From positions 1 through 64,000 of the forward strand of contig CAJOIU010000004.1 in NCBI GenBank assembly GCA_905234855.1: a stretch of 64,000 nt of DNA, in the 5' to 3' direction. Source of the DNA: an uncultured Oscillospiraceae bacterium. GTDB taxonomy: Bacteria; Bacillota; Clostridia; Oscillospirales; Oscillospiraceae. Every line of letters begins with the position of its first letter. Within the stretch, counting starts at the first letter, position 1. A program made the position numbers and the translations under genes. This document shows positions 67-5,808 of this stretch, piece by piece. The notes beneath the pieces were generated by a model that saw only the letters and a list, made by a program, of their open reading frames with translations, had not been told where the DNA came from and ran no database searches.

Positions 67-1986
67 TCAATCGGCGGCGCTGTCCTCGGCAAAGCCCTCG
101 TAGGGCAGCTCGATCTCGCCCGCGTCTGTCGCGGCGAAATAGGCGTTCAGATCGGACGCGAGCTTCGAAGTGTAAAGCGTGCGCGTGGGCGCGGCCAGAT
201 GATAGTCGTCGTCGAAGAACACGGCGGGCTCATAGATGGCGTCCTTGATGTCGCCGAGGATGTTGATGTTGTAGTTTTCGTCGAGATAGGACTGGAAGGC
301 GTCCATGGCCTCGTCGGTCTGATAGTCATAGAGGGAGTTGCGGTTGAGCGGCGTGAACGCCATGGCGTAGTCGATGCCGTTTTGCTGCAGCTTCCAGTAT
401 TGGACGTTGCTGTAGTAGATCATGAAGTCGTATTCCGGCCAGCCGTCGCCGAGATAGATCTTGCGGCCGTTCGTAAAGCTGTCGGAGCCGTTGGCGCGGG
501 TAACGACGTTCAGCGTGCCCTGAATGTCGTAATAGCCGTTCGGCGCGAGGGAGCTGACGTAGTCCTCATAGGTCATGGGGCTCATATCCCGCCGCGCGTC
601 GAGGTAGGAGTTGAAGGAGTCGTAGAGCATGTTGTACTTTGCGGCGTTCACCCAGCTGAAGATGTTGTAGCAGCTTTCAAAGGAGCGGAAGGTCTCCCAG
701 CGACACTGCACGCCGCCGAGCTGCCAGTAGCTGTATTCGATGATCTGCAGCAGGAAGTCGCCCTCCTTCATGAAGCGCATCGCCCAGTCGCTCGTCATAT
801 TGAAAAGGTTCGCGCCGTTGGAGCCGCAGTTCAGCACGAGATAGTCCCGGTTGAGCTCGGATTCGAGCTGCTCCGCGTCTACGGCATAGGTGGTGGAGGA
901 GCCGCCGAGGACGATCATCTTCGGCCGGTCGGAGTCCTTCCAGTAGTTCATGATCTCGATCTTCTTCGTGTGGTTGTTGAACCAGTTCGAATACCGCGGC
1001 ATGGTGGCGGCGCTGAAATAGACGGAATAGAGCCACCAGTCCTCATTGAAGGAGGCGTCGGAGAGGTAATCGAGGGAATCAAAAAGCACGAGGCTGTGAA
1101 GGTTCTCGCAGTTGTTGCAGGAATAGTCCTCGATCACGCGGATGGAGGAGGGGAAGACAATGCTCGTAATGGTGTCGTTTTCGGAAAACGCGCCCGCGGC
1201 CACGCCGACGACGGGTTCGTTGTTATAGGTGGAAGGGATGCTGACGGATTCACCGCCGGTATAGCCGGTGATGAACCAGCCGCCCCGGGAGTTGTCGTAT
1301 TCGAAGGTAAAATCGCTGGCCGGATTCTGCTCGCTCCAGATGCAGTAGAGCTCGATGACCTCGTCGGTGTCCTCGAAGGCCTTGCCGCCGATGTTATAGA
1401 ACTCGCCGGAATTGTCCGCCTCGGTGTTGTAGCCGATGAGGGTATAGCCCTCGCGCTCGAAGTAGCCCATCTCCGGCAGGGTGTTGGGATAGAGGTAATA
1501 GGCGAGGGAGAAATCGTCCCAGAGGGTATCCGTGGTGGAGACGAGGTTTTCCTCGGCGCAGTCGGTGGCGCCGATCACGGTGCCGCCGTTCGTGTGGTAG
1601 CGGACGAGGGCGGTGTCATGATCGCGGAAATTGGCAAAAAGCCATGTATCGCCCGTGATGGGGAAGGTATAGTCCTTATCATAGCTCACGATAACGCCGC
1701 CGTCGGAGAGATAGCCGCCGGAGGTCCAGCAGAAAAATGCGCTGCTGTCGGAGGGAACGGCATGGGCGGTGATCTCCGTTCCGGCGTCATAATAGCCCTG
1801 CACGGTCTCGCTGTAGATGTTGCCCTCCGCGCCGTCGTAGGTCATGCCGAAGGAAAACCGGCCGTCGCCGCCGTCGATGGACACCCCGTCGATGGAGATG
1901 GTCACGTCTGAACAGGCACAGAGCAAAGCGATCATGAGGATCGCGAGGAGAATGGGGATGATTCTTTTCAAGGCTTTTCCCTCCAA
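67..1986 (-). CDS. Lipoprotein with InlB/Listeria-Bacteroides-like repeat, BspA-type LRR and C-terminal SGNH/DltD-like domain
   Basis: Lipobox IALLCAC; YHTNGG...REGYTLIGYNTEADNSG repeat; GYTGGESVSIPSTYNNEPVVGVAAGAFSENDTITSIVFPSSI LRR; KMIVLGGSSTTYAVDAEQLESELNRDYLVLNCGSNGAN SGNH-like block. Confidence 0.75.
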   Translation of the reverse strand: MEGKALKRIIPILLAILMIALLCACSDVTISIDGVSIDGGDGRFSFGMTYDGAEGNIYSETVQGYYDAGTEITAHAVPSDSSAFFCWTSGGYLSDGGVIVSYDKDYTFPITGDTWLFANFRDHDTALVRYHTNGGTVIGATDCAEENLVSTTDTLWDDFSLAYYLYPNTLPEMGYFEREGYTLIGYNTEADNSGEFYNIGGKAFEDTDEVIELYCIWSEQNPASDFTFEYDNSRGGWFITGYTGGESVSIPSTYNNEPVVGVAAGAFSENDTITSIVFPSSIRVIEDYSCNNCENLHSLVLFDSLDYLSDASFNEDWWLYSVYFSAATMPRYSNWFNNHTKKIEIMNYWKDSDRPKMIVLGGSSTTYAVDAEQLESELNRDYLVLNCGSNGANLFNMTSDWAMRFMKEGDFLLQIIEYSYWQLGGVQCRWETFRSFESCYNIFSWVNAAKYNMLYDSFNSYLDARRDMSPMTYEDYVSSLAPNGYYDIQGTLNVVTRANGSDSFTNGRKIYLGDGWPEYDFMIYYSNVQYWKLQQNGIDYAMAFTPLNRNSLYDYQTDEAMDAFQSYLDENYNINILGDIKDAIYEPAVFFDDDYHLAAPTRTLYTSKLASDLNAYFAATDAGEIELPYEGFAEDSAAD

Positions 1987-2140: not shown

Positions 2141-2169
2141 TTGACAGGATCGAAGGCGAAGGGTTACAA
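2141..2169 (+). promoter_or_regulatory. Sigma-A type promoter for the tailoring operon
   Basis: TTGACA, 17-nt spacer, TTACAA (then T). Confidence 0.6.
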
Positions 2170-2220
2170 TCAGCGGTGGCGGATGACCAGTATACGTTGC
2201 ATGGAAGAGAGAAACCGGCT

Positions 2221-3699
2221 ATGAGCAGCATCATCGAGTATCTTGACGCCTCCTGTGAGGCGTATCCGAAGGCCGTGGCCGTAGCCGACGGCGCCCGCGG
2301 GCTCACCTTTGAGGCGCTGCGCCGGATGGCGTGGGGGCTCGGCGGCTTTTTGCTGGAAAAGGGCGTTTGCGGACAGGCCGTGGGCGTCTATGCCCAGCGG
2401 AAGGCGGAGGTCATCGCTGCGATGCTCGGCTGCGCCGTTTCTGGGAACTCTTATGTCCCCCTCAATCCCGATGCCCCGGCGGAGAAGACGAAAAAGATCC
2501 TCGCCCACGCGGGCGTGCAAGTGATCCTCGGCTTTGCCGACGGCGAATACGACGGCGCGGATGCGGGCTGCGAGTATATCCGCATGGACGGAGAGTGTTT
2601 TCCTGTATCCGACACCCGGCCGGATGTGACCGTCCGCGGGGAGGACACGCTCTATATCATCTATACCTCCGGCTCCACCGGCGAGCCGAAGGGCATTCGC
2701 AAGAGCCATGGCTCCGTGGTGGATTTCATCGAGGCCTATGTTCGGGAGCTGGGCTTTACCCATGAAGAGATCCTCGGCAACCAGACGCCGTTCTGCTTCG
2801 ATGCCTCGGCCAAGGATATCTATCTCATGCTTAAGACCGGCGCGCGGATGGAGATCATCCCCTCGGAGAAATTTATCTTCCCCGTGCAGCTCATCGAGTA
2901 TCTGAACGAGAAGAAGATCACCTTTATCTCTTGGGTGCCTTCGGCGCTGGCCATTGTGGCGCGGCTGCGCACCTTCCGGGATATCCTGCCGACGACGGTG
3001 CGGCGCGTAGCCTTCGTGGGGGAGGTGTTCCCCGTCAAAGACCTCGAGGCGTGGCGCACGGCTCTGCCGGAGCTCGAATATATCAATCTATACGGCTCCT
3101 CGGAGCTGGCGGGCGTTTGCGCTCTCTACCGCATCCCCAAGCACATTCCCTGCCCGCCCGCGCTGCCCATTGGCAAGCCGCTGGGAAATTCGAAAATCTA
3201 TCTTTGGGAGGATGGGAAGCTTGTCCCGGATCGGGGGGAGATGCTCGTGGCCAGCGCCGCGCTGGCGGACGAGTATATCCACGACCCGGAAAAGACCGCC
3301 GTCACCTTTACGGAGATCGAGATCGACGGGAAACCCACCCGGGTGTTGCATACCGGCGACTGGGCAAGATATGACGAAAACGGCGACCTCGTGTTCATTT
3401 CCCGGGGCGACGGGCAGATCAAATATAAGGGCTACCGCATCGAGCTCGGCGAGATCGAGGCGGCGGTGAATGCGCTCGATTTCATCGGCCGCGCCTGCTG
3501 CCTGTATAACGCCGAGAAGGAGCGGATCACCGTTTTCTGCACCACCGATCGCGATGGGCTGAGGCTGCGCGACCTGAACGCCGCCCTTGAGGGACGGCTC
3601 GTGGATTATATGCTGCCCCGCCGTCTTGTCGTGCTGGACGAGATGCCGCTCAACGCCAACGGCAAGATCGACCGGCCGTATCTGAAAACCATGCTGTGA
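2221..3699 (+). CDS. DltA/NRPS-like amino acid adenylation enzyme (standalone A domain)
   Basis: YTSGSTGEPKG, FCFDASAKDIYL, NLYGSSE, HTGDWARYDENGD, YKGYRIELGEIE, NANGKIDR core motifs. Start moved to ATG 2221 because the promoter would place the transcription start near 2176. Confidence 0.9.
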   Translation: MSSIIEYLDASCEAYPKAVAVADGARGLTFEALRRMAWGLGGFLLEKGVCGQAVGVYAQRKAEVIAAMLGCAVSGNSYVPLNPDAPAEKTKKILAHAGVQVILGFADGEYDGADAGCEYIRMDGECFPVSDTRPDVTVRGEDTLYIIYTSGSTGEPKGIRKSHGSVVDFIEAYVRELGFTHEEILGNQTPFCFDASAKDIYLMLKTGARMEIIPSEKFIFPVQLIEYLNEKKITFISWVPSALAIVARLRTFRDILPTTVRRVAFVGEVFPVKDLEAWRTALPELEYINLYGSSELAGVCALYRIPKHIPCPPALPIGKPLGNSKIYLWEDGKLVPDRGEMLVASAALADEYIHDPEKTAVTFTEIEIDGKPTRVLHTGDWARYDENGDLVFISRGDGQIKYKGYRIELGEIEAAVNALDFIGRACCLYNAEKERITVFCTTDRDGLRLRDLNAALEGRLVDYMLPRRLVVLDEMPLNANGKIDRPYLKTML

Positions 3700-3708
3700 G
3701 GAAAGCTT

Positions 3709-4881
3709 ATGACGAATGAAACGCTGCTGGCGCTGGCCAAGGAATACGGAACGCCCCTGTATGTCTTCGACGCGGACGCCTTCCAAAAGCGGGCTGCGCT
3801 CGTAAAAAATGCAATGGGGGAGGGGATCGCCCTCTGCTATTCCATGAAGGCCAACCCCTTTTTGCTGCGCTGTCTGCCCGAAGAGATTTCCATGCTGGAG
3901 GTGTGCAGTCCCGGCGAGCTGACCGTGTGCGAGAACGCGGGCGCCGATCTGACGCGCATCGTTTTTTCCGGCGTGAACAAGACCCGGGAATGCGTTGAGC
4001 GGGCGATGGACGACCGTGTGAACGTGTTCACCGCGGAAAGCCCGCTGCACTGCGAACATATCGAGGCGGCCGCCGCTGCCCGGGGGATCACCGTGCCGGT
4101 GCTTATGCGCCTGACCTCCGATAACCAGTTCGGCATGGACGAGGACGTGATCGTGTCGCTCGCTGCGGCGCGGGATCAGGCGTATCCCCATATCGACTTC
4201 GTCGGCCTGCATTATTTTTCCGGCACGCTCAAAAAACGCCCCACCCTCATCGGCCGTGAGCTGGATAAGATGGACGTGCTGGCGCGTCGTGTGAAGGAAG
4301 AGGCGGGTATCACGCTTACCCGCATGGAATACGGCCCCGGCCTCTGGATCGACTATTTCGGCGACGACCCGGACGGCGCGGAGGAGGCTCTGCTCGCGGA
4401 GGCGGCGGAGGTCATCCGGCCGATGGGCGAGAAATACGATCTCACCGTGGAGATGGGGCGGTTTTATTCCGCGCCCTGCGGCGCGTATCTCACGACCGTT
4501 ATGGACACGAAAACGAACTGCGGCTACAACTACGCTATCGTGGACGGCGGCCTGCATCAGATGAACTACGACGGACAGATGAAGGGAACGCAGGTGCCCG
4601 ATATCCGCTGCTTGACAGGCGCCGCGGGCGAGGAGAGCGACTGGTGCATCTGCGGCAGCCTCTGCACGCCGAACGATGTTTTGGTACGCCGGGTTTCGAT
4701 GCATGCCCCGATGCGGGGCGATATTCTGGCCTTCTGCCGGACAGGCGCCTATTCCATCAACGAGGGCTTCGCGTTCCTCCTGAGCCGCGATCTTCCCGCG
4801 GTGGTGATTTATTCGGAGAAAAACGGCGCGCATGTCGCCCGTGAGCATATAAGGCTCGATCCTCTCAATACCCCGAAATAA
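3709..4881 (+). CDS. Fold-type III PLP-dependent decarboxylase/racemase family (DapDC/ODC-like)
   Basis: CYSMKANP PLP-lysine motif, GLHYFSG, EYGPGLW, CGSLCTPNDVL C-terminal motif. Confidence 0.85.
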   Translation: MTNETLLALAKEYGTPLYVFDADAFQKRAALVKNAMGEGIALCYSMKANPFLLRCLPEEISMLEVCSPGELTVCENAGADLTRIVFSGVNKTRECVERAMDDRVNVFTAESPLHCEHIEAAAAARGITVPVLMRLTSDNQFGMDEDVIVSLAAARDQAYPHIDFVGLHYFSGTLKKRPTLIGRELDKMDVLARRVKEEAGITLTRMEYGPGLWIDYFGDDPDGAEEALLAEAAEVIRPMGEKYDLTVEMGRFYSAPCGAYLTTVMDTKTNCGYNYAIVDGGLHQMNYDGQMKGTQVPDIRCLTGAAGEESDWCICGSLCTPNDVLVRRVSMHAPMRGDILAFCRTGAYSINEGFAFLLSRDLPAVVIYSEKNGAHVAREHIRLDPLNTPK

Positions 4882-4896
4882 AGAAGGAGTCACACC

Positions 4897-5502
4897 ATGG
4901 ATATCGACTATTTTTCCAACAAAGAGCTGCGTGAGATGGGCTTCAAAAAGCTCGGAAAACGCGTGCTGATCTGCCGCACCTGCAAGATCTATCACACCGA
5001 TCAGATCGAGATCGGCGACGATGTGGAGATCGACGATTTCACCATCCTGAACGGCACCATCTCCATCGGCAATCACATCCACATCAGCTCCAACTGCGAG
5101 CTTTACAGCGGCGAGTCCCGCATCGAGATCGCGGACTATGTCGGCATCTCGTCCCATTGCTCGTTCTACGGCATCACAGACGATTATGTAGGGCCGTATA
5201 TGAACAACCCCACCGTGCCGCCCCGCTTCCGCAATCTCACCGAGGAGCCGGTCATCATCGACAAGCATGTTCTGATCGCCACCCACAGCGTCGTGCTGCC
5301 GGGCGTGCATATCGGCGAGGGCTGCTCCTTCGGCGCGCACGCCATGATCTCGAAGTCCACCGAGCCTTGGGGCGTTTATGTCGGCTGTCCCGCTCGGCGC
5401 ATCAAGGAGCGCGACCGGGGCATTCTGGAAAAATGCCGCCAGCTTGAGGAGAGCGAGGCTGCCCGCAAGGAGCGCGCCGCCGCCAGAAAAGCCAAGCTTT
5501 GA
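4897..5502 (+). CDS. Left-handed beta-helix (hexapeptide) acyltransferase
   Basis: Hexapeptide repeats (IEIGDDVEIDDF, ISIGNHIHI, VVLPGVHIGEGCSFGAHAMIS, VYVGCPARRI). Confidence 0.88.
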   Translation: MDIDYFSNKELREMGFKKLGKRVLICRTCKIYHTDQIEIGDDVEIDDFTILNGTISIGNHIHISSNCELYSGESRIEIADYVGISSHCSFYGITDDYVGPYMNNPTVPPRFRNLTEEPVIIDKHVLIATHSVVLPGVHIGEGCSFGAHAMISKSTEPWGVYVGCPARRIKERDRGILEKCRQLEESEAARKERAAARKAKL

Positions 5503-5529
5503 AAAACCAAATTTGGAGGATTATACAAA

Positions 5530-5754
5530 ATGCGCGAACAAGTTTTAGAGATCCTGCTGGATGTCGTCCCCGATGTGGACTTTGAAAATGAGGTCGATCT
5601 CATCGCCGGAAAGATCATCGACTCCTTTGCTGTCGTCGCCATGGTGAACGAGCTGAACGACGAGCTGGATATCGACATTCCCTCCCGCGAGATCCTGCCG
5701 GAAAACTTCTACAGCCTCGATACCATCGTGAAGCTGGTGGAGAAGTATAGCTGA
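5530..5754 (+). CDS. Acyl/peptidyl carrier protein (DltC-like)
   Basis: 74 aa, helix pattern and candidate phosphopantetheine Ser in KIIDSFAVV. Confidence 0.85.
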   Translation: MREQVLEILLDVVPDVDFENEVDLIAGKIIDSFAVVAMVNELNDELDIDIPSREILPENFYSLDTIVKLVEKYS

Positions 5755-5769
5755 TCCGAAGACAAAAAA

Positions 5770-5808
5770 GGGCTGCCGCACCATTTGGTATGCGGCAGTC
5801 CTTTATTA
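5770..5808. terminator. Bidirectional intrinsic terminator
   Basis: gggctgccgca / tgcggcagtcc 11-bp stem flanked by A and T tracts, between convergent genes. Confidence 0.8.

Follow-up and report, generated by a model that had tools for sequence, protein, structure and literature searches.

The window analysed here is a stretch of 64,000 nucleotides (positions 1 to 64,000 of contig CAJOIU010000004.1, assembly GCA_905234855.1) from an uncultured Oscillospiraceae bacterium, and close to its first base lie four tightly spaced genes of the same strand that encode a stand-alone amino-acid adenylation (A) enzyme, a fold-type III enzyme dependent on pyridoxal phosphate (PLP), a left-handed beta-helix (LbH) acyltransferase and an acyl carrier protein (ACP), exactly as a sequence-only reading of this DNA had reported. 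The source genome (G000), a draft of 1.79 Mb, is 82.6% complete, and the near relatives found are uncultured Oscillospiraceae, some of whose isolate names point to red deer and rabbit. The features of the locus are the following.

67 to 1986, minus strand: divergent lipoprotein with a signal, InlB/BspA leucine-rich-repeat (LRR)-like repeats and a C-terminal SGNH-like part (GGSS...DDYH)
2141 to 2170, plus strand: predicted sigma-70-like promoter TTGACA-18-TACAAT (consensus scan, 11/12 matches)
2221 to 3699, plus strand: stand-alone amino-acid adenylation enzyme P0001
3709 to 4881, plus strand: predicted fold-type III PLP decarboxylase P0002 (Pfam, BtrK match, motifs, Foldseek)
4897 to 5502, plus strand: predicted AntD-type LbH acyltransferase P0003 (PDB 3vbi match)
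5530 to 5754, plus strand: DltC-like ACP P0004 (Pfam PP-binding, DSF serine)
5773 to 5798, no strand assigned: inverted repeat, probable bidirectional terminator

The intergenic gaps measure 9 bp (A to PLP), 15 bp (PLP to LbH) and 27 bp (LbH to ACP). Between relatives, third-position changes predominate in all four genes, and the order A, PLP, LbH, ACP is identical in every orthologous locus whose contig is long enough; the four-gene operon is therefore not due to chance. The open reading frame of the A gene opens with GTG at 2176, and its start is most likely the ATG at 2221, where the orthologues begin. The promoter that the sequence-only reading had placed upstream is the top-scoring of 6 promoter-like matches found versus 2.0 expected, and its function is predicted. 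The terminator with which that reading closed the operon is less secure: the inverted repeat is present, but it was called on the minus strand, and terminator-like matches are barely commoner than in shuffles (5 versus 4.3), so that the call is weak. An antisense open frame of 750 aa lies opposite the operon (3088-5340, minus strand); G+C-rich sequence has many such frames, and we judge this one to be a codon-usage artefact.

Within the genus, the operon occurs in 11 of 35 sampled genomes, with PLP orthologues of 72–85% identity, and in a tree of RpoB the genomes that carry it form one clade (9/11 placed), hereafter the window clade. Two of its loci have regulatory genes beside the operon, a response regulator and a histidine kinase in L038 and a kinase in L040. 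With searches of 391 genomes of the class and 301 of the family, we recovered another 21 clostridial loci that have relatives of the PLP enzyme at 34–50% identity. An A gene is present in all 21, either adjoining the PLP gene or separated from it by the ACP gene alone, and an ACP in 20 (the exception, L082, is a contig end; in L083 the ACP was recovered by translating the gap). A DltB-like membrane-bound O-acyltransferase (MBOAT) is encoded in 19 of the 21 (the contig ends in L082, and L088 is without one), and an SGNH-like gene, assigned by motif, in each of the 18 MBOAT loci with a long enough contig. The distant gene orders number at least four (A-PLP-ACP-MBOAT, A-ACP-PLP-MBOAT, ACP-A-PLP-MBOAT and PLP-ACP-A-MBOAT), and in five of these loci a response regulator and a histidine kinase adjoin the operon. 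The 27 LysA loci that these searches also returned served as a control, and none of the partners lies within 1.5 kb of them. The synteny search proposed in the sequence-only reading thus finds homologues that are linked rather than scattered, and of the neighbourhood it had singled out, the A/PLP/ACP linkage is wide, whereas the LbH gene is confined to the window clade. Since the distant loci keep A, ACP and MBOAT in shuffled orders without LbH, the wider system appears to be a Dlt-like carrier/MBOAT/SGNH pathway plus a decarboxylase.

P0002 exceeds the Pfam cut-offs for Orn_Arg_deC_N and Orn_DAP_Arg_deC, and its best sequence match in the PDB is BtrK (2j66, 2.7e-30; identity only about 24%), which in butirosin biosynthesis decarboxylates glutamyl-ACP (according to the molecule name in PDB 7ru7). 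The PLP lysine, the ExGR glutamate and the cysteine of fold III decarboxylases are retained; in many distant family members the stacking histidine is replaced by glutamine. In P0002 the motif CTPND follows a family pattern, C[T/S]xxD, that is also seen in BtrK, whereas the 27 LysA proteins have CES[GD]D; it is the glutamate of the LysA CESGD motif that contacts the distal end of diaminopimelate. The P0002 family likewise lacks some 15 residues of the LysA active-site (lid) loop, a loss that would leave the PLP active site open to the carrier arm. With CESGD and the lid loop gone, and CTPxD in place as in BtrK, the sequence indicates that P0002 is not LysA. In the AlphaFold model (pLDDT 79), called for by the sequence-only reading, the 50 best Foldseek matches are all decarboxylases (LysA, BtrK, SbnH, D-ornithine/D-lysine and lysine/ornithine decarboxylases) and include no racemase. 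The parallel with BtrK drawn in that reading is therefore borne out, BtrK being the top PDB sequence match with the same CTPxD motif. Elsewhere, L091-L094 encode BtrK-like PLP enzymes with a GPLCTPTD or GPSCTPTD motif, 25–31% identical to P0002 and without an MBOAT; two ACP-like frames lie near the PLP gene of L092, and L091 and L094 have a common conserved neighbourhood of their own.

P0001 matches Pfam AMP-binding (8.5e-54), and its best NCBIfam match is AA-adenyl-dom (4.5e-81, under its cut-off); the models for DltA (241.7 bits, cut-off 559.9) and for the exosortase-A ligase TIGR03098 (190.7 bits, cut-off 592) are not reached. Aligned on a GrsA fragment that served as a ruler and was checked against the known GrsA code, the pocket reads D-A-K-S-A-V-L-G-C-K, with Asp235 and Lys239 in GrsA numbering and with a penultimate residue that hinges on local gap placement. 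Asp235 binds the amino group of the substrate, Lys239 is the Glu-selecting residue in surfactin synthetase, and the DltA pocket differs from that of P0001 with its Lys239. Genus relatives have DAKS[AC]VLG[AC]K and most distant loci DVKILSLCCK or near variants, so that both residues are found in all genus members read and in 18/21 distant loci. Their conservation suggests as substrate an acidic amino acid, i.e. one with two carboxylates. The FDAS motif (A4) on which the sequence-only reading had relied is indeed present and kept in orthologues, but it does not show alpha-attachment, and the conserved Lys239 points instead to an acidic substrate. The A genes of L177, L178 and L179, which lack Asp235, adjoin the closest non-genus PLP enzymes (50% identity). 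The genome of the window also encodes a second stand-alone A domain (G000:C32:6140-7729, L135; 37% to P0001, pocket DNLFYCMDCK) near which no carrier gene was detected, and a related gene is found at L187 923-2434.

The carrier P0004 narrowly exceeds the Pfam PP-binding cut-off (21.2 versus 20.8 bits) and matches both DltC models below their cut-offs (NCBIfam PRK05087, 6.1e-9, 35.8 bits versus 68; TIGR01688, 23.4 bits versus 52.4). Its phosphopantetheine serine, residue 32 in a DSF motif, is kept in orthologues as in the sequence-only account. P0003 matches PDB 3vbi over its length (1.8e-46; next different protein 4.4e-11), an entry named galactoside O-acetyltransferase that we take to be AntD, the anthrose N-acyltransferase. 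AntD acylates a 4-amino sugar nucleotide, with acyl-CoA as the donor. The serine (to Ala/Thr/Cys) and aspartate (to Asn) altered in 3vbk/3vbm/3vbl/3vbp are both conserved in P0003. The AntD paper is cited in PMC8141488. In the window clade LbH is the most conserved operon enzyme (87–94% identity) and lies inside the operon in every locus long enough, while it is absent from all 21 distant loci. As it is found only in this clade, it is best regarded, from its sequence match, as a sugar N-acyltransferase of AntD type and a clade-specific add-on outside the core system. By analogy, two roles would fit: capping of the tethered amine, or carrying of the acyl group to an amino sugar.

In the window genome, MBOAT and SGNH-like genes are divergent neighbours of the A/carrier operon, in contrast to the distant relatives in which the Dlt-type set of A, carrier, MBOAT and SGNH (the last by motif only) is encoded together. 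The reverse complement of window bases 1-99 matches the start of contig C12 exactly (L045 1-99), and contigs C4 and C12 very probably join at this 99-bp overlap, left open in the draft assembly. Past the overlap on C12 lie a small membrane protein, an MBOAT (P0007) and an SGNH/LRR protein. The small membrane protein (L045 about 78-311, read by eye) is hydrophobic and stands between the lipoprotein and the MBOAT; similar frames are seen in L035, L042 and L043, and they are not obviously DltX-like. The order lipoprotein, MBOAT, SGNH/LRR recurs in L035, L042 and L043, where it adjoins the operon; G004, G016, G027 and G028 have it on a contig other than that of the operon (unlinked copies L137-L139 and L142). 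The four-gene set proposed earlier is hence real, but the system is larger than it implied, with MBOAT and SGNH-like partners just outside the window. The only PDB matches of P0007 are DltB, the MBOATs read have the histidine motif LWHG/FWHG, and nearly all MBOATs end in a shuttle-like hexapeptide, with xYxxF at the C terminus of all 50 in the set compared; an acyl-shuttle motif FxYxxF at the MBOAT C terminus has been described for MBOAT-SGNH systems (PMC12148441). For the SGNH-like partner, Pfam and PDB profile matches are not significant, and the AF2 model of P0005 is poor (pLDDT 52).

Orthologues of P0007 (73–77%) are found in exactly the same 11 of 35 genomes as the operon, the best match in the other 24 being 46%; in G028 the two units sit on different large contigs and yet co-occur. 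By simple counting such a distribution would arise once in 4e8, a figure that we rejected as decisive, as the carriers are one clade and it counts as about one event. The co-occurrence mostly reflects a common ancestry, although the two units have remained together also in genomes where they are not linked. P0007 had been expected to group with the operon MBOATs, which the MBOAT tree contradicts: the operon MBOATs form a clade of their own, which includes those of PLP-less sister operons in the same genus, and P0007 falls outside it. In the window clade, then, either P0007 replaced the original MBOAT or LbH took over the transfer.

The sister operons, in genomes G024, G007, G011 and G002, have an A-ACP-MBOAT-SGNH content without a PLP gene; the ACP of the G002 operon was not detected by search. 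They lie at the following positions.

L185, 6853-11204
L186, 6857-11234
L187, 6658-10975
L188, 7301-11671

The pocket in L185, L186 and L187 is DAKCAGLGCK, with Lys239 in all three sister A domains aligned, and Lys239 was accordingly rejected as a marker of PLP-containing operons only. These operons probably constitute a Dlt-like pathway for an acidic amino acid without the decarboxylase, in which the amino acid would pass on untrimmed, and in view of them tailoring by the PLP enzyme looks optional. In G026 (L189 1857-14802), an A-MBOAT-ACP-SGNH set is accompanied by IspD-like cytidylyltransferase, NAD-dependent epimerase, transketolase-like and LuxE genes, which suggests a teichoic-acid-like or capsule acceptor for that cluster.

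The closest known parallel in overall composition is Dlt (DltA, DltB, DltC, DltD and DltX; D-alanylation of teichoic acids), which likewise has a stand-alone A enzyme, a small carrier, a DltB-like MBOAT and an SGNH-like partner. The dlt-like A/ACP pair of the sequence-only reading is thus supported, with a DltC-like carrier here and a DltB-like MBOAT in relatives. Unlike Dlt, the present system has a PLP decarboxylase, an A-domain pocket with Lys239 and, in the window clade, an added LbH; its shuttle tyrosine is at the MBOAT C terminus, whereas Dlt uses the DltX microprotein. We do not assign the system to Dlt itself, as P0001 scores under the cut-off for DltA and P0004 under that for DltC. 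In the butirosin set BtrJ/BtrI/BtrK, BtrK is the nearest solved sequence and has the CTPxD motif in common, but the product is an antibiotic side chain; BtrJ is not an A-domain enzyme. Similar chemistry is known for the beta-amino acid starters of vicenistatin and fluvirucin: VinN/VinL/VinO decarboxylate a carrier-bound amino acid attached through its side chain (PMC11284099), and FlvN/FlvL/FlvO convert L-Asp to a beta-alanyl-carrier (PMC10951976). Both likewise have an A enzyme, a stand-alone ACP and a PLP decarboxylase acting on a carrier-bound aspartate-type substrate, but feed polyketide synthases, whereas here the partners are MBOAT/SGNH or LbH. The exosortase-A-associated families TIGR03098/TIGR03099 pair an AMP-forming ligase with a fold III decarboxylase in the same way, but P0002 does not reach TIGR03099 (166.7 bits, cut-off 478), and no exosortase was found in the operon neighbourhood. 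AntD of the Bacillus cereus group, which LbH matches, is linked to the anthrose cluster rather than to an ACP. Acetylation systems of the PatA/PatB type have the same MBOAT-SGNH pairing with a fused C-terminal shuttle hexapeptide but use acetyl-CoA, and according to PMC12148441 Dlt is the only MBOAT/SGNH pathway with a carrier protein, in contrast to the operons described here, which have one. A literature search that left most subscription journals uncovered returned no description of a DltB-type MBOAT with decarboxylase and ACP, nor of the exosortase pair, in line with the earlier statement that the locus was not recognised as a characterised system.

From the parts, their linkage and their residue patterns we infer a substrate, its side-chain attachment, a decarboxylation, a direction of transfer and an acceptor. 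The A enzyme would adenylate an acidic amino acid, most likely L-aspartate via its beta-carboxylate (alternatively glutamate), and load it onto the ACP phosphopantetheine through the side-chain carboxylate, since PLP-dependent decarboxylation requires that the alpha-carboxylate beside the amine be free. The PLP enzyme would then take off this alpha-carboxylate on the tethered amino acid to give beta-alanyl-ACP or 4-aminobutyryl (GABA)-ACP. The DltB-like MBOAT may pick the acyl group off the ACP and hand it on, via the shuttle tyrosine at its C terminus, to a partner of SGNH type on the outer side of the membrane, which would esterify a polymer of the envelope. The AntD-like N-acyltransferase of the window clade would cap the tethered amine or divert the acyl group to an amino-sugar nucleotide. 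Carrier-dependent tailoring is most likely the function of the locus, and to the fuller reading, a Dlt-like envelope-acylation pathway with an acyl group made on the carrier by decarboxylation, we give a probability of roughly one half. Several observations weigh against it. The co-occurrence of operon and MBOAT may be a single event, the carriers being one clade; the partner is assigned to SGNH on motifs only (GDS/GSS and D..H); and, as P0007 falls outside the operon-MBOAT clade, its unit may be an unrelated O-acetylation unit. The presence of Lys239 in the PLP-less sisters means that this residue alone is no sign of side-chain loading. The specificity prediction that the sequence-only reading had proposed favours an acidic amino acid, yet L177-L179 deviate (pocket IAR..SQACK, Ile/Arg at 235/239); as Asp235 is replaced, these A domains probably activate a substrate with its amine farther from the activated carboxylate.

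It is conceivable, though we consider it unlikely, that the window clade has been rewired, such that LbH moves the decarboxylated amino acid from the ACP to a 4-amino-sugar nucleotide for a surface glycan and the MBOAT unit is separate, serving for example O-acetylation. The strict presence and high conservation of the AntD-like LbH in the window-clade operons fit such a route, as do its absence from the 21 distant loci, most of which have their own operon MBOAT, the finding that the MBOAT of the window lineage differs in type from the operon MBOATs, and a strong DegT-type sugar aminotransferase (one) in the window's own genome. On the other hand, AntD uses acyl-CoA, the operon has no linked sugar-nucleotide genes, and the MBOAT unit adjoins the operon with the same distribution.

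The sequence-only reading had left open decarboxylation or racemisation of the tethered amino acid, and the first of these is favoured by sequence and fold matches. A racemase that converts L- to D-aminoacyl-ACP would make this a Dlt system specific for some D-amino acid besides alanine; an A domain with Asp235 could then load its substrate through the alpha-carboxyl in the ordinary way, and fold type III does include alanine racemase; but the match to Ala_racemase_N is weak (20.3 bits, cut-off 24.1), whereas the nearest sequences and folds are decarboxylases, the C-terminal decarboxylase domain is over its cut-off, and the ExGR glutamate and decarboxylase cysteine are conserved, all of which makes racemisation improbable. 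Still less probable is a small-molecule pathway in which the amino acid on the carrier would go into a secreted metabolite, as happens for butirosin and the macrolactams: the three-enzyme logic is identical, but the related loci read have no linked polyketide synthase or nonribosomal peptide synthetase assembly line, and the constant partners are MBOAT and SGNH-like membrane or surface proteins. Ordinary lysine biosynthesis, with a diaminopimelate decarboxylase gene beside an A domain by chance, owes what appeal it has to TIGR01048 lysA being the top NCBIfam match by E-value. The score (171.7 versus a cut-off of 297.9 bits), the missing CESGD motif and lid loop, a separate LysA in the same genome (G000:C11:45925-47037, motif CESDD) and the linkage to A, ACP and MBOAT rule it out for practical purposes, and with it one refutation that the sequence-only reading had named.

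Taken more broadly, and tentatively at somewhat less than an even chance, the loci may represent a second carrier-dependent MBOAT-SGNH pathway across Clostridia that makes beta-alanyl or 4-aminobutyryl envelope esters, with an added AntD-like enzyme in one gut clade that directs this acyl group to amino sugars. If this is true, the envelope would gain positive charge without an alpha-amino acid, and bacteria would customise an acyl group before its export. Such a pathway would link the chemistry of antibiotic starter units to the decoration of the cell surface, and beta-alanine or GABA modifications of the envelope may have gone unsought in gut Clostridia.

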